Positions 22,141 through 54,756 of a DNA stretch of 64,000 nt are shown piece after piece (positions within the stretch are counted from its first letter, which is position 1; each line of letters begins with the position of its first letter). The DNA is from Amphibalanus amphitrite (taxonomy: Eukaryota; Arthropoda; Thecostraca; Balanomorpha; Balanidae), in NCBI RefSeq assembly GCF_019059575.1, contig NW_024882773.1, positions 62,001 to 126,000 of the forward strand, given 5' to 3'. The translations under genes and the position numbers were made by a program. Under the pieces are notes generated by a model that did no database searches, had not been told where the DNA came from, and saw only the letters and a list, made by a program, of their open reading frames with translations.

Positions 22141-22633
22141 TTCTCCATGCTGAACTTTTGTGCATTAAGTAATTACTTCCTGTAAATCTGTGAAGGAGAC
22201 TCACTTCTCCAGTCAGTTTGTACATGTATAATCTACAGCACAAACTTCCTACTGACTGGCGCGTCTCTTAAATGCAGGGTTCCTTGTACCTTCCTCTCTC
22301 ACTTTCTCCACCATTTTCCTCCCCGGACGCAAAAAGGAACCCAACCAGGTAAGTGGACAGTGCTGAAATTATATTTATAAAGGCCTTCAGAGAAAAAGGT
22401 CTGATATTCGCACTTCTGTGAAGGTAGTTTCTCTTCCTGCAGTCAGCCACTTTATTCAAACCACCACAGGGAAGGGTCTGACGCAACATAACATCATTGA
22501 GACATTGGACAGTTTTACAAATAAGCGACTCGCTCATATTTGCAAACCATCTACATTGACCTCAGTCTCATCTGTGGCCTCTGGCCAGTACCTAGTTTGA
22601 CTTTTCTGATTTCTCTCATCCCATTGTTCACAG
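22141..22633. other. LINE 3' flank and upstream intron DNA, no gene
   Basis: No supported exon. It ends with a good acceptor (gatttctctcatcccattgttcacag, AG at 22632-22633) that begins the candidate NFU1 exon. Confidence 0.35.
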
Positions 22634-22753
22634 GTTCTGTGAGATGCTGCTGCCAGTGTGCCGAGCCTGCAGCAGGAGGCTGGTGCCCACAGCTGCTGGG
22701 GCGGCTGCTTCCTGGACCAGGAGGGCTCACACTCTCCTGCCAGGTAGAGTCAG
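22634..22753 (+). CDS. NFU1: candidate NFU1 first coding exon (mitochondrial presequence)
   Basis: The acceptor AG at 22632-22633 and a donor cag|gtacgg after 22753 bound an exon with Met at 22644. It reads MLLPVCRACSRRLVPTAAGA, then AASWTRRAHTLLPGRV plus two bases. It has seven Arg and no acidic residue, alternating with hydrophobic and small residues, as expected for a mitochondrial targeting peptide. The leftover two bases (ag) plus the first base of the exon at 46525 (t) make Ser and continue in frame into [14 protein letters not shown] of NFU1. Support is therefore phase, orientation and composition; the 23.8-kb gap between the exons is not proven to be spliced. A rival donor ten bases earlier (after 22743) would break the frame. 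Confidence 0.45.
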
Positions 22754-24751: not shown

Positions 24752-24886
24752 ATGTCCGTGAAGTTAGCGTCAGCAACAGCAACGAATACAGCGTCGGATT
24801 CAGAATCGCTTCAAAAACTGCCATCAGGTCAATTGGGGGACGGGGAACACGAATATGACATTTATTTTGCCCTAGCTCCCTTCCTT

Positions 24887-27800: not shown

Positions 27801-30800
27801 AAAGTGCCCCAAGGCTTCGTCTGATCGCCAAAATAATGGTCGCAATCGATTCCTCGGGTCAATATCTAACCTCAGTCGAAGGTTCCAGACCTGTGGCTCC
27901 TATCCCTCATCCCTTAATCGTCCCTTAAAGGACGGGGCGCGTCAAAAGTGCCCCAAGGCTTCGTCTGATCGCCAAAATAATGGTCGCAATCGATTCCTCG
28001 GGTCAATATCTAACCTCAGTCGAAGGTTCCAGACCTGTGGCTCCTATCCCTCATCCCTTAATCGTCCCTTAAAGACGGGGCGCGTCAAAAGTGCCCCAAG
28101 GCTTCGTCTGATCGCCAAAATAATGGTCGCGATCGATTCCTCGGGTCAATATCTAACCTCAGTCGAAGGTTCCAGACCTGTGGCTCCTATCCCTCATCCC
28201 TTAATCGTCCCTTAAAGGACGGGGCGCGTCAAAAGTGCCCCAAGGCTTCGTCTGATCGCCAAAATAATGGTCGCAATCGATTCCTCGGGTCAATATCTAA
28301 CCTCAGTCGAAGGTTCCAGACCTGTGGCTCCTATCCCTCATCCCTTAATCGTCCCTTAAAGGACGGGGCGCGTCAAAAGTGCCCCAAGGCTTCGTCTGAT
28401 CGCCAAAATAATGGTCGCAATCGATTCCTCGGGTCAATATCTAACCTCAGTCGAAGGTTCCAGACCTGTGGCTCCTATCCCTCATCCCTAAGTCGTCCCT
28501 TAAAGGACGGGGCGCGTCAAAAGTGCCCCAAGGCTTCGTCTGATCGCCAAAATAATGGTAGCAACCGATTCCTCGGGTCAATATCTAACCTCAGTCGAAG
28601 GTTCCAGACCTGTGGCTCCTATCCCTCATCCCTTAATCGTCCCTTAAAGGACGGGGCGCGTCAAAAGTGCCCCAAGGCTTCGTCTGATCGCCAAAATAAT
28701 GGTCGCAATCGATTCCTCGGGTCAATATCTAACCTCAGTCGAAGGTTCCAGACCTGTGGCTCCTATCCCTCATCCCTTAATCGTCCCTTAAAGGACGGGG
28801 CGCGTCAAAAGTGCCCCAAGGCTTCGTCTGATCGCCAAAATGGTCGCAATCGATTCCTCGGGTCAATATCTAACCTCAGTCGAAGGTTCCAGACCTGTGG
28901 CTCCTATCCCTCATCCCTTAATCGTCCCTTAAAGGACGGGGCGCGTCAAAAGTGCCCCAAGGCTTCGTCTGATTGCCAAAATAATGGTCGCAATCGATTC
29001 CTCGGGTCAATATCTAACCTCAGTCGAAGGTTCCAGACCTGTGGCTCCTATCCCTCATCCCTTAATCGTCCCTTAAAGGACGGGGCGCGTCAAAAGTGCC
29101 CCAAGGCTTCGTCTGATCGCCAAAATAATGGTCGCAATCGATTCCTCGGGTCAATATCTAACCTCAGTCGAAGGTTCCAGACCTGTGGCTCCTATCCCTC
29201 ATCCCTTAATCGTCCCTTAAAGACGGGGCGCGTCAAAAGTGCCCCAAGGCTTCGTCTGATCGCCAAAATAATGGTCGCGATCGATTCCTCGGGTCAATAT
29301 CTAACCTCAGTCGAAGGTTCCAGACCTGTGGCTCCTATCCCTCATCCCTTAATCGTCCCTTAAAGGACGGGGCGCGTCAAAAGTGCCCCAAGGCTTCGTC
29401 TGATCGCCAAAATAATGGTCGCAATCGATTCCTCGGGTCAATATCTAACCTCAGTCGAAGGTTCCAGACCTGTGGCTCCTATCCCTCATCCCTTAATCGT
29501 CCCTTAAAGGACGGGGCGCGTCAAAAGTGCCCCAAGGCTTCGTCTGATCGCCAAAATAATGGTCGCAATCGATTCCTCGGGTCAATATCTAACCTCAGTC
29601 GAAGGTTCCTGACCTGTGGCTCCTATCCCTCATCCCTTAATCGTCCCTTAAAGGACGGGGCGCGTCAAAAGTGCCCCAAGGCTTCGTCTGATCGCCAAAA
29701 TAATGGTCGCAATCGATTCCTCGGGTCAATATCTAACCTCAGTCGAAGGTTCCAGACCTGTGGCTCCTATCCCTCATCCCTAAGTCGTCCCTTAAAGGAC
29801 GGGGCGCGTCAAAAGTGCCCCAAGGCTTCGTCTGATCGCCAAAATAATGGTAGCAACCGATTCCTCGGGTCAATATCTAACCTCAGTCGAAGGTTCCAGA
29901 CCTGTGGCTCCTATCCCTCATCCCTTAATCGTCCCTTAAAGGACGGGGCGCGTCAAAAGTGCCCCAAGGCTTCGTCTGATCGCCAAAATAATGGTCGCAA
30001 TCGATTCCTCGGGTCAATATCTAACCTCAGTCGAAGGTTCCAGACCTGTGGCTCCTATCCCTCATCCCTTAATCGTCCCTTAAAGGACGGGGCGCGTCAA
30101 AAGTGCCCCAAGGCTTCGTCTGATCGCCAAAATAATGGTCTCAATCGATTCCTCGGGTCAATATCTAACCTCAGTCGAAGGTTCCAGACCTGTGGCTCCT
30201 ATCCCTCATCCCTTAATCGTCCCTTAAAGGACGGGGCGCGTCAAAAGTGCCCCAAGGCTTTGTCTGATTGCACAAATAATGGTCGCAATCGATTCCTCGG
30301 GTCAATATCTAACCTCAGTCGAAGGTTTCAGACCTGTGGCTCCTATCCCTCATCCCTTAATCGTCCCTTAAAGGACGGGGCGCGTCAAAAGTGCCCCAAG
30401 GCTTCGTCTGATCGCCAAAATAATGGTCGCAACCGATTCCTCGGGTCAATATCTAACCTCAGTCGAAAGTTCCAGACCTGTGGCTCCTATCCCTCATCCC
30501 TTAATCGTCCCTTAAAGGACGGGGCGCGTCAAAAGTGCCCCAAGGCTTCGTCTGATCGCCAAAATAATGGTCGCAATCGATTCCTCGGGTCAATATCTAA
30601 CCTCAGTCGAAGGTTCCAGACCTGTGGCTCCTATCCCTCATCCCTTAATCGTCCCTTAAAGGACGGGGCGCGTCAAAAGTGCCCCAAGGCTTCGTCTGAT
30701 CGCCAAAATAATGGTCGCAATCGATTCCTCGGGTCAATATCTAACCTCAGTCGAAGGTTCCTGACCTGTGGCTCCTATCCCTCATCCCTTAATCGTCCCT

Positions 30801-33800
30801 TAAAGGACGGGGCGCGTCAAAAGTGCCCCAAGGCTTCGTCTGATCGCCAAAATAATGGTCGCAATCGATTCCTCGGGTCAATATCTAACCTCAGTCGAAG
30901 GTTCCAGACCTGTGGCTCCTATCCCTCATCCCTAAGTCGTCCCTTAAAGGACGGGGCGCGTCAAAAGTGCCCCAAGGCTTCGTCTGATCGCCAAAATAAT
31001 GGTAGCAACCGATTCCTCGGGTCAATATCTAACCTCAGTCGAAGGTTCCAGACCTGTGGCTCCTATCCCTCATCCCTTAATCGTCCCTTAAAGGACGGGG
31101 CGCGTCAAAAGTGCCCCAAGGCTTCGTCTGATCGCCAAAATAATGGTCGCAATCGATTCCTCGGGTCAATATCTAACCTCAGTCGAAGGTTCCAGACCTG
31201 TGGCTCCTATCCCTCATCCCTTAATCGTCCCTTAAAGGACGGGGCGCGTCAAAAGTGCCCCAAGGCTTCGTCTGATCGCCAAAATAATGGTCGCAATCGA
31301 TTCCTCGGGTCAATATCTAACCTCAGTCGAAGGTTCCAGACCTGTGGCTCCTATCCCTCATCCCTTAATCGTCCCTTAAAGGACGGGGCGCGTCAAAAGT
31401 GCCCCAAGGCTTCGTCTGATTGCCAAAATAATGGTCGCAATCGATTCCTCGGGTCAATATCTAACCTCAGTCGAAGGTTCCAGACCTGTGGCTCCTATCC
31501 CTCATCCCTTAATCGTCCCTTAAAGGACGGGGCGCGTCAAAAGTGCCCCAAGGCTTCGTCTGATCGCCAAAATAATGGTCGCAATCGATTCCTCGGGTCA
31601 ATATCTAACCTCAGTCGAAGGTTCGAGACCTGTGGCTCCTATCCCTCATCCCTTAATCGTCCCTTAAAGACGGGGCGCGTCAAAAGTGCCCCAAGGCTTC
31701 GTCTGATCGCCAAAATAATGGTCGCGATCGATTCCTCGGGTCAATATCTAACCTCAGTCGAAGGTTCCAGACCTGTGGCTCCTATCCCTCATCCCTTAAT
31801 CGTCCCTTAAAGGACGGGGCGCGTCAAAAGTGCCCCAAGGCTTCGTCTGATCGCCAAAATAATGGTCGCAATCGATTCCTCGGGTCAATATCTAACCTCA
31901 GTCGAAGGTTCCAGACCTGTGGCTCCTATCCCTCATCCCTTAATCGTCCCTTAAAGGACGGGGCGCGTCAAAAGTGCCCCAAGGCTTCGTCTGATCGCCA
32001 AAATAATGGTCGCAATCGATTCCTCGGGTCAATATCTAACCTCAGTCGAAGGTTCCAGACCTGTGGCTCCTATCCCTCATCCCTTAATCGTCCCTTAAAG
32101 GACGGGGCGCGTCAAAAGTGCCCCAAGGCTTCGTCTGATCGCCAAAATAATGGTCGCAATCGACTTCTCGGGTCAATATCTAACCTCTATCGAAGGTTCC
32201 AGACCTGTGGCTCCTATCCCTCATCCCTTAATCGTCCCTTAAAGGACGGGGCGCGTCAAAAGTGCCCAAAGGCTTCGTCTGATCGCCAAAATAATGGTCG
32301 CAATCGATTCCTCGGGTCAATATCTAACCTCAGTCAAAGGTTCCAGACCTGTGGCTCCTATCCCTCATCCCTTAATCGTCCCTTAAAGGACGGGGCGCGT
32401 CAAAAGTGCCCCAAGGCTTTGTCTGATCGCCAAAATAATGGTCGCAATCGATTCCTTGGGTCAATATCTAACCTCAATCGAAGGTTCCAGACCTGTGGCT
32501 CCTATCCCTCATCCCTTAATCGTCCCTTAAAGGACGGGGCGCGTCAAAAGTGCCCCAAGGCTTCGTCTGATCGCCAAAATAATGGTCGCAATCGATTCCT
32601 CGGGTCAATATCTAACCTCAGTCGAAGGTTCCAGACCTGTGGCTCCTATCCCTCATCCCTTAATCGTCCCTTAAAGGACGGGGCGCGTCAAAAGTGCCCC
32701 AAGGCTTCGTCTGATTGCCAAAATAATGGTCGCAATCGATTCCTTGGGTCAATATCTAACCTCAGTCGAAGGTTCCAGACCTGTGGCTCCTATCCCTCAT
32801 CCCTTAATCGTCCCTTAAAGGACGGGGCGCGTCAAAAGTGCCCCAAGGCTTCGTCTGATCGCCAAAATAATGGTCGCAATCGATTCCTCGGGTCAATATC
32901 TAACCTCAGTCGAAGGTTCCAGACCTGTGGCTCCTATCCCTCATCCCTTAATCGTCACTTAAAGGACGGGGCGCGTCAAAAGTGCCCCAAGGCTTCGTCT
33001 GATCGCCAAAATAATGGTCGCAATCGATTCCTCGGGTCAATATCTAACCTCAGTCGAAGGTTCGAGACCTGTGGCTCCTATCCCTCATCCCTTAATCGTC
33101 CCTTAAAGGACGGGGCGCGTCAAAAGTGCCCCAAGGCTTCGTCTGATCGCCAAAATAATGGTCGCAATCGATTCCTCGGGTCAATATCTAACCTCAGTCG
33201 AAGGTTCCAGACCTGTGGCTCCTATCCCTCATCCCTTAATCGTCCCTTAAAGACGGGGCGCGTCAAAAGTGCCCCAAGGCTTCGTCTGATCGCCAAAATA
33301 ATGGTCGCAATCGATTCCTCGGGTCAATATTTAACCTCAATCGAAGGTTCCAAACCTGTGGCTCCTATCCCTCATCCCTTAATCGTCCCTTAAAGGACGG
33401 GGCGCGTCAAAAGTGCCCAAAGGCTTCGTCTGATCGCCAAAATAATGGTCGCAATCGATTCCTCGGGTCAATATCTAACCTCAGTCGAAGGTTCCAGACC
33501 TGTGGCTCCTATCCCTCATCCCTTAATCGTCCCTTAAAGGACGGGGCGCGTCAAAAGTGCCCCAAGGCTTTGTCTGATCGCCAAAATAATGGTCGCAATC
33601 GATTCCTCGGGTCAATATCTAACCTCAGTCGAAGGTTCCAGACCTGTGGCTCCTATCCCTCATCCCTTAGTCGTCCCTTAAAGGACGGGGCGCGTCAAAA
33701 GTGCCCCAAGGCTTCGTCTGATCGCCAAAATAATGGTAGCAACCGATTCCTCGGGTCAATATCTAACCTCAGTCGAAGGTTCCAGACCTGTGGCTCCTAT

Positions 33801-34270
33801 CCCTCATCCCTTAATCGTCCCTTAAAGGACGGGGCGCGTCAAAAGTGCCCCAAGGCTTCGTCTGATCGCCAAAATAATGGTCGCAATCGATTCCTCGGGT
33901 CAATATCTAACCTCAGTCGAAGGTTCCAGACCTGTGGCTCCTATCCCTCATCCCTTAATCGTCCCTTAAAGGACGGGGCGCGTCAAAAGTGCCCCAAGGC
34001 TTCGCCTGATCGCCAAAATAATGGTCGCAATCGATTCCTCGGGTCAATATCTAACCTCAGTCGAAGGTTCCAGACCTGTGGCTCCTATCCCTCATCCCTT
34101 AATCGTCCCTTAAAGGACGGGGCGCGTGAAAAGTACCCCAAGGCTTCGTCTGATTGCCAAAATAATGGTCGCAATCGATTCCTCGGGTCAATATCTAACC
34201 TCAGTCGAAGGTTCCAGACCTGTGGCTCCTATCCCTCATCCCTTAATCGTCCCTTAAAGGACGGGGCGCG
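24887..34270 (+). repeat. 144-bp satellite array, forward, about 65 units
   Basis: Unit landmarks: ggacggggcgcgtcaaaagt, gccccaaggcttcgtctgat, ataatggtcgcaatcgattc, ctcgggtcaatatctaacct, cagtcgaaggttccagacct, gtggctcctatccctcatcc. Successive ggacggggc occurrences at 24909 and 25053 give 144 bp. Most units differ at 0-4 positions; occasional single-base deletions (taaagacgg) or 3-4-bp losses (25644, 28840) occur. Because 144 is 48 codons, uninterrupted stretches read open for hundreds of codons (for example 30260-31810), but this follows from the repeat period. Confidence 0.97.
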
Positions 34271-34300
34271 ACCATTATTTTGACCGAGGTCATTATTTTA
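34271..34300. other. head-to-head junction where the satellite switches strand
   Basis: The forward array stops in the middle of a unit at ggacggggcgcg and continues with fragments of reverse-strand unit (accattattttgaccgagg repeated in scrambled form) before regular inverted units begin. Confidence 0.8.
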
Positions 34301-35815
34301 GACCGAGGAATCGACTGCGACCATTATTTTGGCGATTAGACTTAGCCTTAGGGCTTTTTTGACGCGCCCCGTCCTTTAAGGGACGATTAAGGGATGAGGG
34401 ATAGGAGCCACAGGTCTGGAACCTTCGACTGAGGTTAGATACTGACCCGAGGAATCGATTGCGACCATTATTTTGGCGATTAGACGAAGCCTTGGGGCAC
34501 TTTTGACGCGCCCCATCCTTTAAGGGACGATTAAGGGATGAGGGATAGGAGCCACAGGTCTGCAACCTTCGACTGAGGTTAGATATTGACCCGAGGAATC
34601 GATTGCGACCATTATTTTGGCGATCAGACGAAGCCTTGGGGCACTTTTGACGCGCCCCGTCCTTTAAGGGACGATTAAGGGATGAGGGATAGGAGCCACA
34701 GGTCTGGAACCTTCGACTGAGGTTAGATATTGACCCGAGGAATCGATTGCGACCATTATTTTGACGGTCAGACGAAGCCTTGGGGCACTTTTGACGCGCC
34801 CCGTCCTTAAAGGGACGATTAAGGGATGAGGGATAAGAGCCACAGGTCTGGAACCTTCGACTGAGGTTAGATATTGACCCGAGAAATCGATTGCGACCAT
34901 TATTTTGGCGATCAGACGAAGCCTTGGGGCACTTTTGACGCGCCCCGTCCTTTAAGGGACGATTAAGGGATGAGGGATAGGAGCCACAGGTCTGGAACCT
35001 TCGACTGAGGTTAGATATTGACCCGAGGAATCGATTGCGACCATTATTTTGGCGATCAGACGAAGCTTTTGGGCACTTTTGACGCGCCCCGTCCTTTAAG
35101 GGACGATTAAGGGATGAGGGATAGGAGCCACAGGTCTGGAACCTTCGACTGAGGTTAGATATTGACCCGAGGAATCGATTGCAACCATTATTTTGGCGAT
35201 CAGACGAAGCCTTGGGGCACTTTTGACGCGCCCCGTCCTTTAAGGGACGATTAAGGGATGAGGGATAGGAGCCACAGGTCTGGAACCTTCGACTGAGGTT
35301 AGATATTGACCCGAGGAATCGATTGCGACCATTATTTTGGCGATCAGACGAAGCCTTGGGGCACTTTTGACGCGCCCCGTCCTTTAAGGGACGATTATGG
35401 GATGAGGGATAGGAGCCAGAGGTCTAGAACCTTCCACTGAGGTTAGATATTGACCCGAGGAATCGATTGCGACCATTATTTTGGCGATCAGACGAAGCCT
35501 TGGGGCACTTTTGACGCGCCCCGTCCTTTAAGGGACGATTAAGGGATGAGGGATAGGAGCCACAGGTCTGCAACCTTCGACTGAGGTTAGATATTGACCC
35601 GAGGAATCGATTGCGATCATTATTTTGGCGATCAGACGAAGCCTTGGGGCACTTTTGACGCGCCCCGTCCTTTAAGGGACGATTAAGGGATGAGGGATAG
35701 GAGCCACAGGTCTGGAACCTTCGACTGAGGTTAGATATTGACCCGAGGAATCGATTGCGACGGTTATTTTGGCGATCAGACGAAGCCTTGGGGCACTTTG
35801 GACGCGCCCCGTCCT
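34301..35815 (-). repeat. 144-bp satellite array, inverted, about 10.5 units
   Basis: Same unit as 24887-34270 read on the minus strand. It stops at a TTAA inside a unit, where the element 35820-38594 is inserted, and resumes at 38595. Confidence 0.95.
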
Positions 35816-35819
35816 TTAA

Positions 35820-38594
35820 AGGGACCATCCCACCTTAACATTAGTTTTGAGTTGAGATAGCCAAGTTTGCGGCCAGGCTCAGAAACCACCATTTATCCTG
35901 GTCGCAACCCCCGCAGCTTTATGGTGTTCAAGAAATTTCTTCCCTTTACTTGCAGGGTGGGACCAGCTTAGTCCCTATCTCTTAACCATTAGCGGTTTTT
36001 TGATGACGTCAGCAGTCATTTCAACGCCCGCCATTCCTTGAACCCGAGTTTTGCCGACCTTGAGCTCCCTTTTTTATCAACGTGAAATCCGTCGTCGGCG
36101 CTGAGAAAGCCTATTGCTTTTCATTTTAATTTGAATATTAGAAGATACCCACCACTGGAACTTGGACTGATATTATACCAAGGCCGAAGATGATCAAGCT
36201 GCCTGCTATATCTGGAGCTTGGTGTTCAACTTCAACATGGAATAAAAAACAAAATATCAAAGCAAACTGGATATGGTACTGCAAGTTAAAGTCCAAAGAA
36301 ATTTGAAGAGCTGACAATTGACATTAATTCTTTTCCTGCAAGGTTTCCATATGGAGATCACAGTCACACCATGAAGAAATATTTTTGATGTTTACAGTTG
36401 AAAGGGGATTTATATTCGTTTTGACGAAAGACGCTGCTGACTGTCTTTGGAAAAGGATGTCGGCATGAGGTGCAATTGTGCTTGTGAAGTGGTTATAACT
36501 GGTCTTTTCACAGTATTAAATTAAATGTGCCATTGCAGCCAAGTGTGTTATCATGTAAGGTAAAATCAAAACTACAATGTTGGTTTTACGAGCATTGAGA
36601 AGGCTGGTAGGTAACACCTGCCTGTGCTCGTAAATCATGCTGCCAGCCAGAGTATTCTAAATTAATTTTATCATACACTTTTGTTGTCCAGAATGGTTGC
36701 ACTATTGTTTGGTATCATATTATTCCATGTAAATATGGTAGTGTAAAGTCCGACCAACATGTTACCAGATTTGAAGCTGTTACGTTACCTAAGTACCTGT
36801 TTTTTACTGGCGTGGTGAATGTCACCTGGATTTTGTTTTGAGGTGCAGACCTAGTAACTCTGACTACATGGGTTTGAAGCTATTATCTATTCTGTTTTTA
36901 CTGGCCTGGTGAATGGCGACTGATGTTGTCCGTGGATGGCACTGAAACAAATTTTGAGTGTTTTGTACAGTGTTTTAATACAATGCCGAGGGCTGAAAGT
37001 TCTCTTGTTTAGAGTGGTGAAAGTTCAGGATATGCCAGCCACCATGGTGGGTCAGAGTTAAATGTGTTGCAGTCAGTTCGGCTTCGGCAAGCACACGGAT
37101 GGGCATACGCATCAAGACCTGCTCTGCCATACTTTCAGCCAATTTTACCTAAGTAAGTCTTTTCTTTTTTCTGCCAAAAGCTATGACATTGTGAATTTCA
37201 GCACTGTGGCCTGTGTGTAGCTTTCAGGAAAGCAATTCTAAATAAAGCTCTGATAAAGTGCAAAATCAGCAATGCAGCCCTCTATTACATTTTCTACAAC
37301 ATCTTACTTGTTCCTTGCATGGAGAGAAAAATGCAATGTTATGAATTCGTTTATTCACATAATTTGACAAGCATGCAGTTACCTGCTACTATCACTGCAC
37401 AAAACAGAGCAGAAAACATCAGTTGATCAAACACAAGACATAACAGAAGTTTACAACATAGGGCTGCCGAACCTGCTTCCTCCCACCACAGTTGATGCCA
37501 TTTCCTAGCCTGGCTTGATGTGAGCACTGAATAGCTGCTTTGTCTAATTACAGCTCACTACCATTCAACTTAAACTACTCTCTTTAAAGTAAGAGTGAGA
37601 GCGTTCAGTGTTCATAGCAGCTCGACAGACGACAGACAACAAACATCTTGACAAACCAACCAGTATTTGATTTGGCTAATGATTTATGTGCTTGTTGTAT
37701 CATGGCCAAACTACTTTAACAGCAATAATCCCTGTTTCATCTTGATCTTGCTTTTATTTCCATTTGAACTCAGATCTTGAAACAATCATCTGAAGTGATA
37801 TCAGATACTGGCTTCTGTTTCTCTTGAAAGCAAGTTAAAACAACAATGATAAACTAAGGCAGGAGATGTGAGTTGTGGCAGTAAATTTTTGATTCAACAT
37901 ATGTCAACCTTATATTGCTTGAGACCTCTGTGACAGACAAACAAATATTTATAGTTTTTTGATAGTTTGGATTCTTGGCTTGATTTAGCAGATCAGCTGT
38001 GAATCTTGACTTTGAAATCACATAAATGTCATGGTACCCGAACGAATCCTCGCATGACATTTCTTCGTAGCACAATTTTTCGTCCGCATTTCTTCGTCTA
38101 CAAATCTTCGTCGGTGCATTTATTTGTCCCTCAATGCTTACTCTTGCATATATTTGCGTTGAAGAAGAAATGCGAGCCGATTTTCATATACTCTGGTGCG
38201 AGACAAAGTAATGCGATAGGTACGAATAAATGCCCTGACGAAGATTTGCAGACGAAGAATTGCGATACGAAGAAATGCCATAAGAATTGTCCTGGAATCC
38301 TTTATTGGCCATCATATATTGACCTTGATAAGATAAACGCATCATTCGCGCAATATTTGTCGCACTTTGATACCAAATTATTGCTTCCAAATACCGACGT
38401 AAAGAAAACCTTTATGTGACGTCATAGAAACAGCGGATTTCCCAAAAAGTAAACAAAAATAAAAGTCTTATATCTCGAAAACGGGTGAATATTTTCCGGT
38501 AAAATTTGGTAGATGTTCATTTTCGCTCTTTGTGATTCACGCTACATCACTTTTATGCCAATTCATTAACTTTTTTGAAGGTGGGAGGGTCCCT
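35820..38594 (+). mobile_element. 2.78-kb TTAA-type DNA transposon inserted in a satellite unit
   Basis: Ends are AGGGACCATCCCACCTT and AAGGTGGGAGGGTCCCT (16 of 17 bp inverted match), flanked by TTAA at 35816-35819 and 38595-38598. The satellite normally reads cctttaagggacg at this point, so the TTAA is an exact target-site duplication. TTAA targets are used by piggyBac and Kolobok families. No transposase is recognised; the short frames inside (for example 38006-38419) show no domain. Relatives: 22819 (left end), about 45790-45966 (right end), 46856-49527. Confidence 0.85.
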
Positions 38595-38598
38595 TTAA

Positions 38599-40199
38599 GG
38601 GACGGTTAAGGGATGAGGGATAGGAGCCACAGGTCTGGAACCTTCGACTGAGGTTAGATTTTGACCCGAGGAATCGATTGCGACCATTATTTTGGCGATC
38701 AGACGAAGCCTTGGGGCACTTTTGACGCGCCCTGTCCTTTAAGGGACGATTAAGGGATGAGGGATAGGAGCCACAGGTCTGGAACCTTCGACTGAGGTTA
38801 GATATTGACCCGAGGAATCGATTGCGACCATTATTTTGGCGATCAGACGAAGCCTTGGGGCACTTTTGACGCGCCCCGTCCTCTAAGGGACGATTAAGGG
38901 GTGAGGGATAGGAGCCACAGGTCTGGAACCTTCGACTGAGGTTAGATATTGACCCGAGGAATCGATTGCGACCATTATTTTGGCGATCAGACGAAGCCTT
39001 GGGGCACTTTTGACGCGCCCCGTCCTTTAAGGGACGATTAAGGGATTAGGGATAGGGGCCACAGGTCTGGAACCTTCGACTGAGGTTAGATATTGACCCG
39101 AGGAATCGATTGCGACCATTATTTTGGCGATCAGACGAAGCCTTGGGGCACTTTTGACGCGCCCCGTCCTTTAAGGGACGATTAAGGGATGAGGGATAGG
39201 AGCCACAGGTCTGGAACCTTCGACTGAGGTTAGATATTGACCCGAGGAATCGATTGCGACCATTATTTTGGCGATCAGACGAAGCCTTGGGGCACTTTTG
39301 ACGCGCCCCGTCCTTTAAGGGACGATTAAGGGATTAGGGATAGGGGCCACAGGTCTGGAACCTTCGACTGAGGTTAGATATTGACCCGAGGAATCGATTG
39401 CGACCATTATTTTGGCGATCAGACGAAGCCTTGGGGCACTTTTGACGCGCCCCGTCCTTTAAGGGACGATTAAGGGATGAGGGATAGGAGCCACAGGTCT
39501 GGAACCTTCGACTGAGGTTAGATATTGACCCGAGGAATCGATTGCGACCATTATTTTGGCGATCAGACGAAGCCTTGGGGCACTTTTGACGCGCCCCGTC
39601 CTCTAAGGGACGATTAAGGGATGAGGGATAGGAGCCACAGGTCTGGAACCTTCGACTGAGGTTAGATATTGACCCGAGGAATCGATTGCGACCATTATTT
39701 TGGCGATCAGACGAAGCCTTGGGGCACTTTTGGCGCGCCCCGTCCTTTAAGGGACGATTAAGGGATTAGGGATAGGGGCCACAGGTCTGCAACCTTCGAC
39801 TGAGGTTAGATATTGACCCGAGGAATCGATTGCGACCATTATTTTGGCGATCAGACGAAGCCTTACGGCACTTTTGACGCGCCCCGTCCTTTAAGGGACG
39901 ATTAAGGGATGAGGGATAGGAGCCACAGGTCTGGAACCTTCGACTGAGGTTAGATATTGACCCGAGGAATCGATTGCGACCATTATTTTGGCGATCAGAC
40001 GAAGCCTTGGGGCATTTTTGACGCGCCCCGTCCTTTAAGGGACGATTAAGGGATGAGGGATGGGGGCCACAGGTCTGGAACCTTCGACTGAGGTTAGATA
40101 TTGACCCGAGGAATCGATTGCGACCATTATTTTGGCGATCAGACGAAGCCTTGGGGCACTTTTGACGCGCCCCGTCCTTTAAGGGACGATTAAGGGATG
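38599..40199 (-). repeat. 144-bp satellite array, inverted, about 11 units
   Basis: Continuation of the inverted array after the TTAA element. It ends in the right terminal inverted repeat of the large element. Several units share a variant pair (ggattagggataggggcc) at about 39047, 39330 and 39763, showing block duplication. Confidence 0.95.
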
Positions 40200-40334
40200 A
40201 GGGAAGGGAGCTAGGGCAAAATAAATGTCATATTCGTGTTCCCCGTCCCCCAATTGACCTGATGGCAGTTTTTGAAGCGATTCTGAATCCGACGCTGTAT
40301 TCGTTGCTGTTGCTGACGCTAACTTCACGGACAT

Positions 40335-40343: not shown

Positions 40344-41245
40344 TGGCTCTTGTGAGCTTTTGACACCTTGATTTCATTTTTTTTTTTTGCTGGACTTACC
40401 TTTCATCTATCATGATTTTCGATGTTGTATAGATGTCAGGGTCAAGGTCAATGTCAACCTTGGTCATCTAAAAGCATTGCATTTTAGGCTAGCTGTTAAC
40501 TTTTAATGAAGTTTTTTGCTGCATTTTTTGGTAAAAGCTCAGTTTATGATGCCATGTAATAGGGACACACAAACCATTCTGTGCACACATCAGTATACAC
40601 ACAGACACACACAGACAAACACATATCATTGACCTTGACCTAACTTGACCTGAAATGGCCACAACCAGTAAAAATCTAGTCGGATAGTGTGACAAAGAGC
40701 TGTTTTAGCTGGCTTGGCACCACAAACGATCAGTATATGATGGGCACAGCACGTGATATTCCAACGGTGGCCCCAAAAAGCAACATTTTTTAGTTTGACC
40801 TGACCTGGAAGGTCAATGACTGACCTGAGAAGGTAAAACTGAGTATCATTGGATTCGTCTCTTCCCAAAAAATCGTTTTGGTCCTTACCGCGAAGCTCTA
40901 TCTCCAACAGGAACGAAATGGCGCGGGGGGGGGGGTGGCAACCACCCCCACCCCCCAATGTGCGTTCTAGGATGGGAAAATGGCATGTGCAGGCGAGGGT
41001 TAAAGCATAGAGACTAGAGTAGAGATATACTTTGTCGTGTTTTGAGTGTAACGTCACAATTCTATAACTTTTTGTTTCAAGGGTATGGATATGACTCGGT
41101 CGCATTTTCGATTGGCGCAGTTGCGATAGTCCACGCCCCCCGCCCTCCCGCATATACCCCAGCTCTGACCGTGTCCAAACCCCTCCTGTGCACGCCCCAG
41201 CTCTGACCGTTCCCCGTCCCCGCCCCCTGTTCACGCCACAGCTCG

Positions 41246-46524: not shown

Positions 46525-49500
46525 TGTGTCGTCTCTGCGTACTCCGGCCGCTCTACTGGTCCCGAGGGTGTGCGCCCCGGCACTGCTGCCGGCTCGCACC
46601 ATGTTCATCCAGACGCAGGAGACGCCGAACCCCAACAGCCTCAAATTCCTTCCGGGAAGAACGGTACGCTGGGGGAGGGGGGGCAGACTGGTCGGTCCGA
46701 GGAGCGATATTTGCGGGCTGTGGGAATGTGGGAATAGCATGCTGCAGGACTGCGGAGTCTGAGTCGGAGTCGGTCGGTCAGAGTCGTCAGTCCTGCCCTG
46801 AGCCGTAGTCGGAGTCGCCAAAATCTTACCGATTCAAACTCCGGAGTCGAGTTAAAGGTACCCTCCCACCTTCAAGGAAGTTAATGAATTGGCACAAAAG
46901 TGATGTACCGTGGTTGAGAAAGACCGGAAATCAAATAAACATCAACCAAATTTCACACAAAAAATATTACCGGTTTTTGAGAAATTAGACTTTTATTTCT
47001 TGTTTATTTTTTGCCTCCGCTGTTCCTATAACGTCATTTGGAAGCAATCATAGGTGTCTTAGAAGTGCGACAAATGTTGCGCGCAAGGCAGTACGTACTA
47101 CCACAGCAACAATTGTCAATTTTCCCAAGGTTTTAGTAAAATATTGAAAAATCGCTAGATCTGCGGTGACGTCACAAAGTCAGAGGGGGCATTCAAATGC
47201 ATTAGCCCTTCTGAATTTGAGTGCTGCAGACTTAACAATTAAATATTTCCGACTTAAGGCATCTCTCGATGCGGTGAGCATCCAAACCGGTATTTGCGAG
47301 CCAGGGCTGTCTCAACTCAACAATGCGTAGTGATTAGTGTATGTTTACAGTCTTGTTTTTAACTATATTTGCATTTGTATAAGTTTTATGTTTGTGACTG
47401 AATCCGTTATTGGGTGCCCACTGCCCATGCCCGTGGATTTTTTTCATTAAACAAAATAAACAAATAAGCAAATAAGCTATACATTTGGCTGTCTCATCTC
47501 GAAACTACACCTGTAATGTTACCTTGTCTCACCTGGAATGTTAACCCGCGCACCGACGGGGGTCTGCGCCAACTTCGCACCGACGGGGGGGGGGCGGATT
47601 ACCGCCCCCCCCCCTGAGATCTCGAGAACGAAGCAAGATAGCGACAAGCGGTAAACGGCATCGGATATGCACGGCCAAGATCTACAATTTTTACTAAGGT
47701 CATTTTCAGGTCAGGTCAAAGATGACGTCACAGGGGTCGAAAAAGTCAAAATGGTGGCGCTAGATATGGAGAGAGTTTTTCTCGAATAACTTTCGAATTA
47801 GTCAGGATAGGAACAAACTAAGGGCATCATCGTGATCCTCTCGTCAATCCGCATCGAATGATATATATATGTTGACCTCGAAAGGTCAAGGTCAAAGGTT
47901 GACCTCAGGTCACGTAACCTCGAGGTCATCATGTATATCATTCGATGCGTCTTGACGAGCTGAACACAATGAGACCATCCACGCGTCTGTATCTTGTTCC
48001 TGTACGGAGTTATTGGCCAAAAACCTTTGGTGACCTTTGATGACGTCACATGACCTCACAGCTGCCCAACAGCAAAACAGACCTCAAGGTAGTGAAGGTT
48101 GATCGTATATGAAGTCATGTAAAGTATATGGGGCTATTCCGACCCGTTTTAGTGGTAAAAACAGGGAGTTGATTTTTCCCCCATTGACTTATAATGGGGA
48201 GGTCGCGAAATTGACCTGACCTTAGGTCACCGATATAAAAATTCCGAGATATACAAATTGTAGCTACTAATGACATAATAATATCCTGCGACTTTCAAAG
48301 GCCTCCAACATCTATTATTACATGGCTCCTGTGTTAATTTGGCATGAGATATTTTTTACTATTGCCCGACATCAGGTTACTGACCTTTCAGTGTCAGGTT
48401 ACTGACCTTTCTGAAGGTGAGAAGCGGTTGCCATGTCAACGGTCAATAGTAAGTTGCTCGCGCAGTGGTGTTTGAACAAAAATTCAAATGTCGTAATTTT
48501 ATCGTCGTTTTCTCAGACTGTTCAGTTTGATTTCGTGATTGGCTAGTCAAGTCATCAAGAACTGGGCCGTCATTTGAACATGTCCGTTCAAATACCCCGA
48601 TTTAATTTGTTGGAGCCGCATTAATTGGATGAGCTATTTTCATCGCGCAGGGCTCAGGGCACTAAAAAAGGTGATTAAATCAGCAGAAGACGTCTTCATT
48701 GAGTTCTTGCAAGTAAAAGGCATATCTGTTGAAAGCTGCATGCACAGCAACGATGTCCTGGACAACGCTGTGAAGGAGTTCTTCATTACTGTAAAACGCA
48801 AGGACGGTGAACGCTACAAATCGAAGAGTCTCCACACTCTCAAGTACGGCGTAGTGAGTGCTATTGCTATATCAACGTAGTGAGTGCTATATCAACTTTA
48901 ACATGTAAAGCAACTAAGTGTGTGCCGTAGACATGTGACGTGGCTATGATTGTATATCCAATACATTCAATTGTACCATGATATTTGTGTTTTGATATTT
49001 TTTATTACGGGATGAATGAGTACTAAGTAAAGATTCCGAGAGTTTGCCATGTAATAAAACGAATACTGCATGGGGGAGCGGGCAATAGCAAAAATATTGC
49101 CCTCTGTAACGTCACTGTCGCCCTCGGGTGAAGACCTCCACAAGTGCTATTGCCCTCGGCTTCGCCTCGGACAATAGCACTTATTTCGGTCTTCACCCTC
49201 GGGCGACAGTGACGTCACATCGGGCAATACTTTTTGCTATTGCCCGCTCCCCCATGCAGTATTCGTATACTGTAGCTGTGGCACGGTGACAAAGTTGCAA
49301 AAAAGTGACTTGAGGTTGGGTCATTCAAAGTGACCTGGTGACCTGACCTTAAAAGGTAGGAAGTTCAAACTTGCACACCATGTGTAAAATTGATAAGGTT
49401 ATAGTCATACCAAATTTCGCGGCGCTACGCGCCGCGGTTTTCCCGCTATTCGCGAAAAACCTCAGGGGGGGGCGGATATCCGCCCCCCCCCCCCCGTCGG

Positions 49501-52500
49501 TGCGCGGGTTAAGGTGGGATGGTCACGTTAAAACTGCATAGCTCTTTTGTCATGCACTGCAGCTGCACCCATTAAGCTTGACGATACTACGCTCTTAACC
49601 TTTCCAAATTAGCTTTCATCGAAAAATGTCACGTTTCTGTTTGGGACGAGCGTTTTCAGCGAAATTAAACAAGACAGCGATTTCGCCAGACCCTGCTTTT
49701 AATTCAGCGTGAAGAGTTCAATTCAGAATGAGGCTGTCCAGCCCCCATCCCCGTGTTTGCAGGTTAGGGATGGTCAGATGACCAGAAGGCAGTCACTGAC
49801 GTCGTGCCCCCGCTCTGTCGGTAGGTGCTGGAGGAGGGCGGCACGCTCGACTTCCCCACCGTGGCCACGGCGCAGCACTCGCCGCTGGCCAAGCTGCTCT
49901 TCCGCATCCCGGGCGTCAAGTCCGTCTTCCTCGCCCCAAACTTCATCACGGTCACCAAGGTCAGGCACTAAGATTCGTGTGTGACCCTCGACCCTTTCCG
50001 CAGTGACGAGGAGTAAGGCCGTGACTTTTTAGAGGAGTAAGCCTCGTCACATTTTTTTAGATCGGGAGTAGACAGTGGATGTTGTGTTCTAGACTGTATA
50101 GGGGCACCGTGTGTCATTGCGACTGTAACCGAGGCACTGCAACTCTGATCGTGAATATCGTTTACCCCATTGATACCTCTGATGGATAAGCTAAGGATAC
50201 TAAGCAATATGTTTTTGTGTGTCGTGAAGGGAAATTATCGCTGATTTCACTCACAAACCAGCTGCATGCGGCGCTTCCTATGGGGAGTCTAATCCTGAAC
50301 ATAGTCACGCTAGCGACATGCCAGTCGTCGTAATGGTGTGTCATACTGACGTTCCTGCGTATCTTCCGACACTCCCCGTGTGTGTCTTTACTGTTTACCT
50401 CTATACTGACATTCTTTCTGCGTTTCTTCTGAGGCTCTTTTTGTGCCTCTCCTTACGTTCTCCTAACGTTATTTTCCTTCTCCTCCAACATTCTCCTTGT
50501 ATCTGTGCTGACTGACTTTCACATTGTCTCTCCCGATCCCCTCTGTGTCTGTTCCGTCACAAGTGGTGTCTCTACACTGATATTGTCTCTATGTCCCGTC
50601 TCAGACTCCCTCTGTGTATTCCGTCTCCCTGTGTGTCTCCGTCTCCGTACTCACACCCACCCTGCCCTCCCTCCCGGTGGTAAGATTGATGACGAGGTGG
50701 AGTGGAAGGTCATCAAACCGGAGATTTTCGCCACCCTGATGGACTTTTTCACGTCGGGACTGCCCGTCGTACACCAGGCCGCCTACGACGCCGCCGACGG
50801 ACGTCAAGGTGTGATGACGTCAGTGGGTTACTTTTTGGGAAGGCGAGATGACGTCACTGGGTACGGGGACCCGCAGTTGCTACTGTACACGAACCCCAAC
50901 TCTAGCCGTCTGCCCTGTCCAGTAACAACGGATAACATTGATATCGACTGCTGGTCCCTGTACAAGGGCAGCTGAGGTTTTCTGTGCGTGCCCTCTGACA
51001 GCTTATCGTTGTTCCCTGTGAGGGTGCTGGGACAATTTACTCAGGGTCGCTGTACAGTAGCAACTGCGGGTCCCCGTACCTACCGTTCTCGGGTTTTATA
51101 ACGTTATGAATTAACAATGATAATTTGGAGATAGTAAAGCTGTAAAGCTACATATACATACCACCACGGGATACTATATCAATCTCAATCTCAATCTCAA
51201 TCTCAATCCTCGTATTGTCACGTTCAGCCGGTTCAGCCTCTGCCCGCCCGGCCTGTCGGCGTCTCCGTGCATCTATAGTTGTGTCCATGTCTGACAGATG
51301 GCGCGGAGAGCGGCGATCTGTAGTTGTATTTTTCTCCGACAGATGGCGCGGAGAGCGGCGACGAGGACGAGGTGGTGGCCATGATCCGTGAGCTGCTGGA
51401 CACACGTATCCGTCCCACGGTCCAGGAGGACGGCGGCGACATCGTCTTCATGGGCTTCGAGGACGGCGTGGTGCGTCTGAAGATGCAGGGCTCGTGCACC
51501 AGCTGTCCCAGCTCGGTGGTCACGCTGAAGAACGGCGTCCAGAACATGCTGCAGTTCTACGTGCCCGAGGTGCGGAACAGGTGGGGGAGGAGTACGGACG
51601 GAGGGCGGGGCGGGGGGGGGGAGCGACGGCAACGACTGGAGCGGTGCATCCGTTCTCTCCACCCTTAGTATGGCTCCGCCTCCAATAGTATAGTATCTCT
51701 TCACCCTCGGTATTAGCCCAATCGGTCCTCCATCCGCCTCTGGGACCAAGTACCGACTCCTCATGGTCTGTTTCACATTTCGCCGTTCCGAGCTGACAGT
51801 CACGCCACTGGGACTGGCGAGAGGCGGCCCCCAGTGGGGCTCGTCTCTCGGTGCCACTGGGACTGGCGAGAGGCGGCCCCAGTGGAGCTCGTCTCTCGGT
51901 GCCACTGGGACTGGCGAGAGGCGGCCCCAGTGGAGCTCGTCTCGGTGCCACTGGGACTGGCGAGAGGCGGCCCCCAGTGGGGCTCGTCGCTCGGGGCCCA
52001 GTATCGGCCCCTAGTGGAGCTCGTCTCTCGGGGCCCGGTATCGGCCGATGTGTGTCCACGGTCCGATGTCAGTATCCGCAATGTTGTGTCAGTTGTTGTG
52101 TGTCTGATGTCATATCCTCCAGTGTCACAGGTGGTCTCTATGGAACAGTTTATGGACGAGACGGACGAACCTCTCTAACCGGTTTGGCGGGAGCACGTGC
52201 GAGATACGTGAATATGGACAGTGCGCAATCAATTTTCGGACACCCTGTAGTGTGTCTGATGTTACAGGCTGGCTCTATGGAACAAGTCATGGACGAAGCG
52301 GACGAAGTTGTTACGGTTTGTGTCTGATATAGTGTGTCTGATGTTACAGGTTGTCTCTATTGAACAAGTCATGGACGAGACGGACGAAGTTGTTACGGTT
52401 TGTGTCTGATATAGTGTGTCTGATGTCACAGGTTGTCTCGGTGGAACAGTTTATGGACGAGGCGGACGAAGTTGTTACGGTTTGTGTCTGATATAGTGTG

Positions 52501-53102
52501 TCTGATGTCACAGGTTGTCTCGGTGGAACAGTTTATGGACGAGGCGGACGAAGTTGTTACGGTTTGTGTCTGATATAGTGTGTCTGATGTTACAGGTTGT
52601 CTCGGTGGAACAGTTTATGGACGAGGCGGACGAAGTTGTTACGGTTTGTGTCTGATGTTACAGGTGGTCTCGGTGGAACAAGTCATGGACGAGGCGGACG
52701 AAGTTGTTACGGTTTGTGTCTGATATAGTGTGTCTGATGTTACAGGTGGTCTCGGTGGAACAGTTTATGGACGAGGCGGACGAAGTTGTTACGGTTTGTG
52801 TCTGATATAGTGTGTCTGATGTTACAGGTTGTCTCGGTGGAACAGTTTATGGACGAGGCGGACGAAGTTGTTACGGTTTGTGTCTGATATAGTGTGTCTG
52901 ATGTTACAGGTTGTCTCGGTGGAACAAGTCATGGACGAGGCGGACAAAGTTGTTACGGTTTGTGTCTGATATAGTGTGTCTGGTGTTACAGGTTGTCTCG
53001 GTGGAACAAGTCATGGACGAGGCGGACGAAGTTATCGAGGACGAATTCAAAAAGTTCGAGAAAAAGATCAACGACGACAAGTCAAAATCTGAAGTCAAAT
53101 AG
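46525..53102 (+). CDS. NFU1: NFU1 mitochondrial iron-sulfur cluster scaffold, exons 2-6
   Basis: Coding exons: 46525-46663, 49825-49959, 50685-50808, 51343-51569, 52992-53102 (stop 53100-53102); all introns are GT-AG and phases agree throughout. With the candidate exon at 22.64 kb the product is 281 aa. Order: rest of the presequence ([18 protein letters not shown]), the Nfu N-terminal domain ([69 protein letters not shown]), and the NifU-like C-terminal domain ([34 protein letters not shown], then [20 protein letters not shown]). Cys-Thr-Ser-Cys is the cluster-binding CxxC. The tail [18 protein letters not shown] is acidic, then Lys-rich. Family role: receives or carries 4Fe-4S clusters for lipoate synthase and respiratory complexes in the matrix. 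The start of exon 5 is duplicated in its intron and the last acceptor is amplified tenfold. Confidence 0.95.
48629..48880 (+). pseudogene. fragment resembling a Crypton-type tyrosine recombinase N-terminal region
   Basis: 83-codon frame with [20 protein letters not shown] and [16 protein letters not shown]. The pattern F-F-x-x-V-(K/R)-K-x-D-G-x-x-Y-x-x-x-S-L-x-x-(L/I) is that of the DNA-binding helices in Crypton-derived/QRICH1-ZMYM-like proteins. No catalytic Arg/Tyr region follows; a donor-like gtagtgagtgc lies at the end of the homology, so it could be a captured exon. It lies within a TIR element that should not encode such an enzyme. Tentative. Confidence 0.4.
49059..49266. mobile_element. 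208-bp foldback element
   Basis: acgaatactgcatgggggag at 49059 is mirrored by ctcccccatgcagtattcgt at the other end. The arms (about 90 bp, with gcgggcaatagc and gtcgccctcgggtgaagacc inside) meet at a short centre near 49155-49165 (ggcttcgcc). Confidence 0.8.
50860..51080 (-). mobile_element. 221-bp inverted-repeat MITE, copy 2
   Basis: Same element as 3789-4009 in the other orientation, with the same length to the base and only scattered substitutions (cagcgaccctgag versus ctcagggtcgctg as reverse complement). It lies in NFU1 intron 4. Confidence 0.8.
51179..51209 (+). repeat. (caatct)n hexamer microsatellite
   Basis: tcaatctcaatctcaatctc: about five perfect hexamer copies in NFU1 intron 4. 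Confidence 0.85.
51291..51366 (+). repeat. duplicated splice acceptor plus start of NFU1 exon 5
   Basis: The string gacagatggcgcggagagcg occurs at 51294 and again at 51339; the second is the real acceptor and exon start. The upstream copy would read Gly-Ala-Glu-Ser-Gly-Asp and then tctgtag. Confidence 0.85.
51803..52050 (+). repeat. ~55-bp minisatellite in NFU1 last intron
   Basis: Four to five units beginning gccactgggactggcgagag and continuing gcggcccccagtgg and ctcgtctctcgg; the last units are degenerate (ggggcccagtatcggcccc). Confidence 0.85.
52131..52991 (+). repeat. 82-bp tandem array of NFU1 acceptor + exon-start decoys, ten copies
   Basis: Each unit has about 40 bp of intron ending tgatgttacag and 42 bp of exon (gttgtctcggtggaacaagt ... 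gacgaagtt). Exon-like starts: 52131, 52268, 52350, 52432, 52514, 52596, 52664, 52746, 52828, 52910; the true exon starts at 52992. Spacing is 82 bp, except 68 between 52596 and 52664 and a longer first gap. Every decoy keeps an AG acceptor and would read in the NFU1 frame as [19 protein letters not shown] or a close variant, then stop. Confidence 0.93.
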
Positions 53103-53562
53103 TGTTGCACTGATGATGAGACTGTTATGTTCTGTTACAAGTGCTGTGTGACGCGCTGAAACAGTGATGTGCTACATGATGTACATGATGTCATGTCTGC
53201 AGTCTTAACTTAAAGCTGTGTGACACTACTGGTAGGAACTCGGGACACATTACATTGCCGAGATACGAAGCGGTAACCGTTTGAAAAAAAAAAAACTGAT
53301 CGGTACCATGCCACAATCCACATCTTATATGTTGCATACTTCAGCAGAGTGTGCCACAATCAATAGGCTTCGTTGTGTTTAGTTTCAGCGTCTATTTGTT
53401 GCTGTTTTCGCATGGTGCATAATATTGCTCTGCAGGTAGGCAGGCACGGATTGTGATCCGCTCTGAGGCATGAGCGGAGTGGCGCTTGCTGCTACATTGC
53501 TAATGCTGCTGCTCCAGTAGCCTGAAACAATAACAAAATAATGATATACCTATTAGGCGAAA

Positions 53563-53568
53563 AATAAA
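53563..53568 (+). terminator. candidate NFU1 polyadenylation signal
   Basis: AATAAA in gaaaaataaatgtcg, the first canonical signal after the stop at 53100-53102 (460 bp). Confidence 0.4.
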
Positions 53569-53679
53569 TGTCGCCGAACTGAATTACTCCGATTTTGCTG
53601 TCTCGTCCGAGATATACGCGTAACTCACGTCGCGCCACTGGCCTATATGGCCCCGAAAGTTTGTTATGTGTGGGGGGAC

Positions 53680-54756
53680 CGGGGCAAAGCGGCCACCCTA
53701 TTGTTTGTGAACCCCCGCATGTTTAGGGGGGGTTGGATGGACCCCCATGGTTTTTCGCAAATAACTCGCGCAAAAAGCAGCCGATCGCGTCGAAACTCTT
53801 AGTACCCTGGAGTTGATCAATTTTACACCTACCCTAAAAATGTCATGACCCTGACCCAAATGAACTTTGACCTGTGACCTGATTCTCGAGACCATGTACG
53901 GCCGGAATCGCAATTTGACGTATGTCAGCTCACATTATCCGTGCGTTTCCAGTCTTTTTGTGATTATGAACGTCCAGACATGTAAAATGATGTTCGTCCC
54001 ACGCATTACCGTGGGTGTCAAGGTCACCTGAAGGTCAGGTCAGGTCATTGACCTTTGATGACCTCGGTTCACTTTTCGAGTTTTACATGTTTCTAGGGTA
54101 GTTTTTCGAGCTGATTTCGAATTTAGTGGCCATTTGAACATTTACGTAATAGTTTTAGTGCCTTCGTAACATGTAACGACGCCGTCAGTGGTAGTTGACA
54201 CCTACAATGGCTAGCCGTCAGGACGCCTACTGGTCGACCTGACCTGACCTGACCCAACTTGGCCTAAATGCATGAAGACATCATCTGTGATCAAAACTAA
54301 CATGAACTTCGTGATCAGCACCCCGAAAAACATAACAGCTTCACTTTACGAAGTTCTAGCAGGTCCCGATTTTCCCGACTTTTGGGTCATTGACCTGACC
54401 TGGAAGGTCAACCAATGACCTAGGACCTTAAAATTGGGTATCATCGGCTTCCGCTCGTCACGGGCAGCACGCTCATTTTTTCCGCGAAGTTCTAGTTCGA
54501 TCAGGAGCCGAACGGCAGGGGAGGAGGGCCCAATCGTCCAACCGACCTCCCTCCTACGCATTAGACGCTGGCAAACGCCGCACACATGCGAGGGCTAACA
54601 TGCCGACCGACGCTTCACTTTCAGACCTGGAAAGATTCTTCTTATGTCAACGTTATCCCTCTTAAATTGTCTTTCATTTCAACTTAATTTCATATCTAAG
54701 GGCGTTCACAGATAGTGGCAAGACTTTACACCTATGCATATTGGCCGCTTTGTCCC
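53680..54756. mobile_element. possible TIR element bounded by cggggcaaagcggcca repeats
   Basis: cggggcaaagcggccac at 53680 is inverted at 54741-54756 (ttggccgctttgtccc). The interior from about 54340 to 54597 resembles the right end of the TTAA element family of 60153-61058 (tgacctgacctggaaggtca, cgcgaagttctag, ending catgcgagggctaa), so one old element probably lies inside another. Confidence 0.45.

Follow-up and report, generated by a model that had tools for sequence, protein, structure and literature searches.

Minisatellites that lie across exon-intron boundaries, termed mirages, are described from lancelets in BflGb6, BflGb9, Adh3 and TnC, with imperfect ones in PGBD5, and they are reported to leave regular splicing undisturbed (PMC3087553, PMC3902484). 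Related events are intron gain by tandem duplication in potato RdRp, where a duplication across an intron-exon boundary inherits the acceptor (PMC4974935, PMC3443670), and the dual-specific AGGT sites of human UBC, an array in which AG/GT sites mark the unit borders and could offer splicing a choice (PMC10809524; slashes mark splice junctions here and below). The last exon of NFU1 in the barnacle Amphibalanus amphitrite is preceded by an array that is like the lancelet mirages in having tandem units that extend across an intron end and part of an exon, many of them keeping splice signals (PMC3087553, PMC3902484). Inner copies that look homogenised, next to a diverged copy at one edge, may be a further likeness. 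It is unlike them in belonging to a barnacle and in its position at a terminal exon, where a decoy acceptor alters the C-terminus without needing a donor, and in that a database isoform has a decoy tail, whereas the lancelet mirages are reported to leave splicing undisturbed. The array shares with the potato case a duplication that carries an acceptor along, but no donor within it scores above 4.6, where five real donors score 5.6-9.9, and a new intron is not claimed; it shares with UBC the AG/GT array at unit borders, but each UBC unit is a complete 228-nt monomer that keeps the frame, whereas an NFU1 unit of 82 bases is not divisible by three and includes only 42 of the last exon's 111 coding bases. 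The best reading is a real boundary minisatellite of the kind known from lancelets, in a new lineage and at an arthropod terminal exon, and the literature searched, mostly outside subscription journals, holds no earlier report of a barnacle minisatellite at an exon or of NFU1 in a barnacle.

Layout of the NFU1 gene

The window is a stretch of 64,000 nucleotides of A. amphitrite DNA, and the gene that the preliminary description took to be NFU1 is indeed NFU1: its product matches the human NFU1 structure (PDB 2m5o, E 1.5e-40), has the CxxC motif and matches a public protein, P0124, that carries the Nfu N-terminal and NifU domains (Pfam PF08712 and PF01106). P0124 is listed as NFU1 iron-sulfur cluster scaffold homolog, mitochondrial-like isoform X2, Amphibalanus amphitrite (293 aa; cluster of 11 sequences; one contig of 192,518 bases), and in tblastn the identity of its upstream exons to the window is 96-100%, with differences at splice edges. 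The exons upstream of the array are as follows.

22272..22348, forward strand: coding exon 1a, with which isoform X2 begins (tblastn with P0124, 100%; donor CAG/GTAAGT)
22634..22753, forward strand: exon 1b (tblastn with P0124, 100%; edges read)
46525..46663, forward strand: exon 2 (tblastn with P0124, 98%, the single difference lying at the splice edge; gene model)
49825..49959, forward strand: exon 3 (gene model; tblastn with P0124, 96%, the differences lying at the splice edges)
50685..50808, forward strand: exon 4 (gene model; tblastn with P0124, 100%)
51343..51569, forward strand: exon 5, CxxC domain, donor GAG/GTGCGG (gene model; tblastn with P0124, 100%; PDB match to human NFU1, 2m5o)

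The long intron between exons 1b and 2 (22753 to 46525) contains about 87 copies of a 144-bp satellite in three blocks (24875-35825 and 38592-40211), the first block being inverted relative to the other two. Eleven bases 3' of the exon 5 donor stands a second candidate donor, CAG/GTGGGG (51578-51586), which on an approximate splice matrix scores 8.7, above the 6.9 of the donor used by isoform X2, and which would shift the frame if used.

Structure of the array

The array of acceptors and last-exon starts upstream of the true NFU1 exon is real: tandem repeat scores in TRF reach 1403 at a period of 396 bp and 1285 at 164 bp, so that a chance origin is not in question. In the one haplotype covered it consists of eleven copies, of which one is old and diverged, nine are decoys with the tail TVCV-stop, and the last is the true exon. 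The features of this region are listed below.

51804..52046, forward strand: 48/37-bp tandem repeats within the last NFU1 intron (TRF)
52131..52178, forward strand: diverged, oldest-looking decoy copy, tail PL-stop, with 15 additional bases 5' of the acceptor relative to the units
52251..52991, forward strand: nine decoy units, acceptors 52268 to 52910, each open to TVCV-stop
52664..52723, forward strand: decoy equal to the last 19 residues of P0124 (exact match, one of the eleven acceptors)
52992..53102, forward strand: true last NFU1 exon, coding part, 36 residues (similar tail type in barnacle-like P0125-P0128)
53563..53568, forward strand: predicted AATAAA poly(A) signal, the sole AATAAA or ATTAAA in 51570-54500

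The decoy acceptors are at 52131, 52268, 52350, 52432, 52514, 52596, 52664, 52746, 52828 and 52910. The preliminary description had ten 82-bp units, each with an AG acceptor and 42 bp of exon in phase, a common TVCV-stop tail and the real exon as the last copy. The true exon does close the array, and all ten decoys continue exon 5 in its phase; the number of copies is ten decoys plus the true exon, and the ten spacings are, in order, 137, 82 four times, 68 and 82 four times, eight of them thus being 82. The 137-base spacing follows the first copy, and the 68-base spacing, from 52596 to 52664, reflects a 14-bp loss between two TGTGTCTGAT repeats. Each unit comprises an intron end, an AG and 42 exon-like bases, or 39 in the first copy (52131), which is also the exception to the common tail, ending in PL-stop; the nine later decoys keep the open TVCV-stop tail of equal length, as had been stated. 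The predicted products of 52131 and of the TVCV decoys would be short-tailed, and the true exon encodes 36 residues. These units are not tandemly duplicated cassette exons, in which a whole exon with acceptor and donor would be repeated: the repeated part of the exon stops well before its end, at the 42 of 111 bases given above.

Tandem arrays are prone to misassembly, and one draft mirage is reported to have been apparently wrongly assembled (PMC3087553). The array could in that sense be an artefact in which copies were falsely multiplied or drawn from misjoined reads, but the copies differ by distinct point variants, one unit is of 68 bp, and the tail of a decoy occurs in a database protein, which may rest on the same assembly. 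This is the least probable of the accounts given here, and hardly to be credited.

Strength of the acceptors, donors and poly(A) signals

The boundary triplet CAG is kept in all eleven copies, as CAG/GT in ten and CAG/GC in one. On the approximate matrix, which ranks copies only roughly because it gives low scores to two true acceptors (exon 3 and exon 4), the true last exon scores 7.8 and the ten decoys 6.8-7.4, and the eleven copies are the eleven best acceptors in 51600-53102, the next best scoring 5.4. Other true NFU1 acceptors span 0.8 to 10.6 on the same matrix (exon 3, 5.5; exon 4, 0.8; exon 5, 10.6). The donors of exons 1a and 1b and the acceptor of the ING gene, aligned one or two bases out of register, are left out of these scores.

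Cassette mini-exons of 48 bases, running in phase to ACG/GTTTGT, were considered and are unlikely, as the intron left over would be 34 bases and the array donors are weak. Polyadenylation within the array is unlikely also, with neither AATAAA nor ATTAAA, the two signals tried, present there.

Origin of the copies and variation among them

Homology of the copies with the true exon ends after base 42, and the DNA between units aligns with the intron immediately 5' of the first copy, with one 21-base gap, one 15-base gap and two single-base gaps; a repeat search also found a 29-base match of 79-86% between inter-unit DNA and the intron upstream of the first copy. Thus a segment spanning the intron end and the exon start appears to have been tandemly duplicated, with breakpoints that can be placed only imprecisely from the alignment.

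The nine later decoys and the true exon, ten copies in all, differ from one another at 12 of 42 exon positions. Seven of these 12 variants are shared with the old copy 52131 and are distributed as a mosaic along the array, such as unequal exchange would produce. The most diverged copies are at the 5' edge (52131, 52268, 52350), and the copy at the 3' edge, the true exon, is not so diverged. The stretch from the end of the 42 exon bases to the following acceptor has 2 variable positions out of 40 across eight full-length intervals (the ninth being of 26 bases). The difference from the exon part (12/42 versus 2/40) has p 0.007 in Fisher's test and, with private variants only (5/42 versus 1/40), p 0.20; fewer variable sites outside the exon part could hint at constraint on the acceptor and tail. 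The five private exon variants comprise four that change an amino acid and one that is silent, a mutation pattern because of which protein constraint on the decoys is judged unlikely. Of the earlier suggestion of homogenisation or constraint, the first part fits the mosaic of variants and the second is not supported, given the four amino acid changes and the variants shared with 52131. The array looks neutral.

The same data bear on a functional switch, in which the decoy tail would be a selected alternative C-terminus set by the number of acceptors. The nine later decoys share an open tail with no variable sites in its 17 bases, every acceptor is kept and a database isoform carries the tail, all of which such a switch would accommodate; the tail lies within a homogenised repeat, however, so its sameness needs no selection, and the private exon mutations mostly alter the peptide. 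A selected switch is accordingly very improbable.

The public isoform X2

Of all the copies, the decoy 52664 alone encodes the tail of P0124, which differs from the tail of the true exon; the public gene model therefore already uses a decoy. P0124 has exactly the form that was foreseen for decoy use, in which the CxxC domain is kept and the tail is exchanged. NCBI isoform models are usually based on RNA reads. Decoy use is suggested, short of proof, by this isoform.

The long tail is found in P0125-P0128, of which P0127 is from Pollicipes pollicipes and P0125, P0126 and P0128 are barnacle-like by 81-86% identity. Among the 120 proteins listed for a query of the last two exons, a list whose reach (at most about 178 aa) stays below P0124, none has the TVCV tail.

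The array might instead be real and always skipped, isoform X2 being an artefact of ambiguous read placement or an allele. The undisturbed splicing reported for lancelet mirages would favour such a reading, as would the long tails of the barnacle-like proteins and the resemblance of the copies: reads of the true exon that extend up to 36 bases past the junction fit 52910 with no mismatch and 52664 with one mismatch, reads of 20 to 42 bases past the junction fit both at one mismatch or less, and shorter reads fit more decoys. Short reads cannot firmly tell the copies apart. The copy most easily confused with the true exon is nonetheless 52910 and not 52664, so simple mis-mapping would lead one to expect a different copy from the one observed, and the P0124 tail includes TVCV, which lies outside the ambiguous 42 bases, an argument that is not decisive because a gene model may extend past its reads. 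The RNA donor of X2 may also have had a different array, or a true-exon allele starting with GTG. Complete skipping is, on balance, an unlikely explanation that nevertheless deserves weight.

Predicted products and a model of the array

AlphaFold2 models, each built with 35 sequences, were made for P0124 (the decoy form; pTM 0.43) and for the Pollicipes protein P0127 (the long form; pTM 0.44). The strands and helices of the NifU domain are present in both, and the terminal helix is of 9 residues (284-292) in P0124 versus 20 residues (251-270) in P0127; the human chain 2m5o ends two residues past the stretch aligned with the start of the tail. Both products should keep the NFU1 fold, the long form being judged from Pollicipes. 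On these models the short-tailed protein is probably usable, and this would account for tolerance of the array.

The explanation favoured here, with moderate confidence, is that the array is a mirage-type minisatellite at the last intron-exon boundary of NFU1, tolerated and mainly neutral, with some use of decoys, which the public isoform with a decoy tail makes likely. A short stretch made up of the 3' end of the last intron together with the first 42 coding bases of the last exon would have been tandemly duplicated, and the copies would then have been multiplied and homogenised by unequal exchange, as their mosaic of shared variants suggests. With a working-looking acceptor retained in each copy, the exon 5 donor would meet eleven almost equal acceptors; splicing to the last would yield the ancestral 36-residue tail, and splicing to any of the nine TVCV decoys would yield a tail of 19 residues. 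With neither poly(A) signal in the array and AATAAA at 53563, the 3' UTR of a decoy message would comprise the remaining array and the true exon, ending at the single predicted poly(A) signal downstream, and such a message, with its stop codon in the last exon, should escape nonsense-mediated decay. Regulated use of the decoys is possible.

If the decoys are used, the C-terminus of a core iron-sulfur protein would be set by how many copies a repeat has, and the locus would let spliceosomal choice among near-identical acceptors be tested in a natural setting; boundary minisatellites, described from lancelets, would also arise in arthropods, and one of them may underlie a public protein record. 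A bolder and rather improbable proposal is that the array is an eleven-acceptor selector of the terminal exon, most or all of its copies used at random, with the ratio of long to short tails following the repeat number of the individual, and that boundary minisatellites are a general mutational habit of barnacles, the second lineage beside lancelets.

Other duplications at splice sites and in neighbouring genes

A second duplication in NFU1 includes the acceptor of exon 5.

51271..51360, forward strand: 45-bp tandem duplication that includes the exon 5 acceptor and the start of the exon, two copies, 84% (repeat search, alignment)

Its decoy acceptor (51298) scores 6.9 versus 10.6 for the true exon 5 acceptor on the approximate matrix. 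In an ING gene (PF12998), TRF found a 26-bp array of 7.4 copies (10875-11066) that starts at the donor following CLCNQ; a donor-like GGTGGG is retained in its repeats and scores 5.4-6.6 versus 9.9 for the true donor on the same matrix. Three of the 14 splice sites that could be placed in the two genes, a sample rather than every site of the window, are within local duplications, versus 4.7% of non-satellite positions. In a circular-shift test, in which the exon 1b donor was placed two bases off, 2547 of 50230 shifts (about 5%) reached three, and without the array 3633 of 50230 reached the remaining two. It is only suggestive that tandem duplications favor splice sites.

Starting from the exon 4 donor of NFU1, a 23-base repeat recurs 34 bases apart (50806 and 50840, within 50806-50862), below threshold at the site itself; it may be due to chance, because TGACGTCA is common in the window. 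A tandem similarity with a 38-bp shift (41156-41236) lies upstream of an open reading frame that matches F_actin_bind. The product of the neighbouring gene at 16912-17616 would, by reading, be a tetraspan-like membrane protein, and it matches a hypothetical A. amphitrite protein at 88% identity. Compared with this gene, the database barnacle proteins P0121 and P0122 have an additional 11-residue repeat that is missing in the window, another tandem duplication, in coding sequence.
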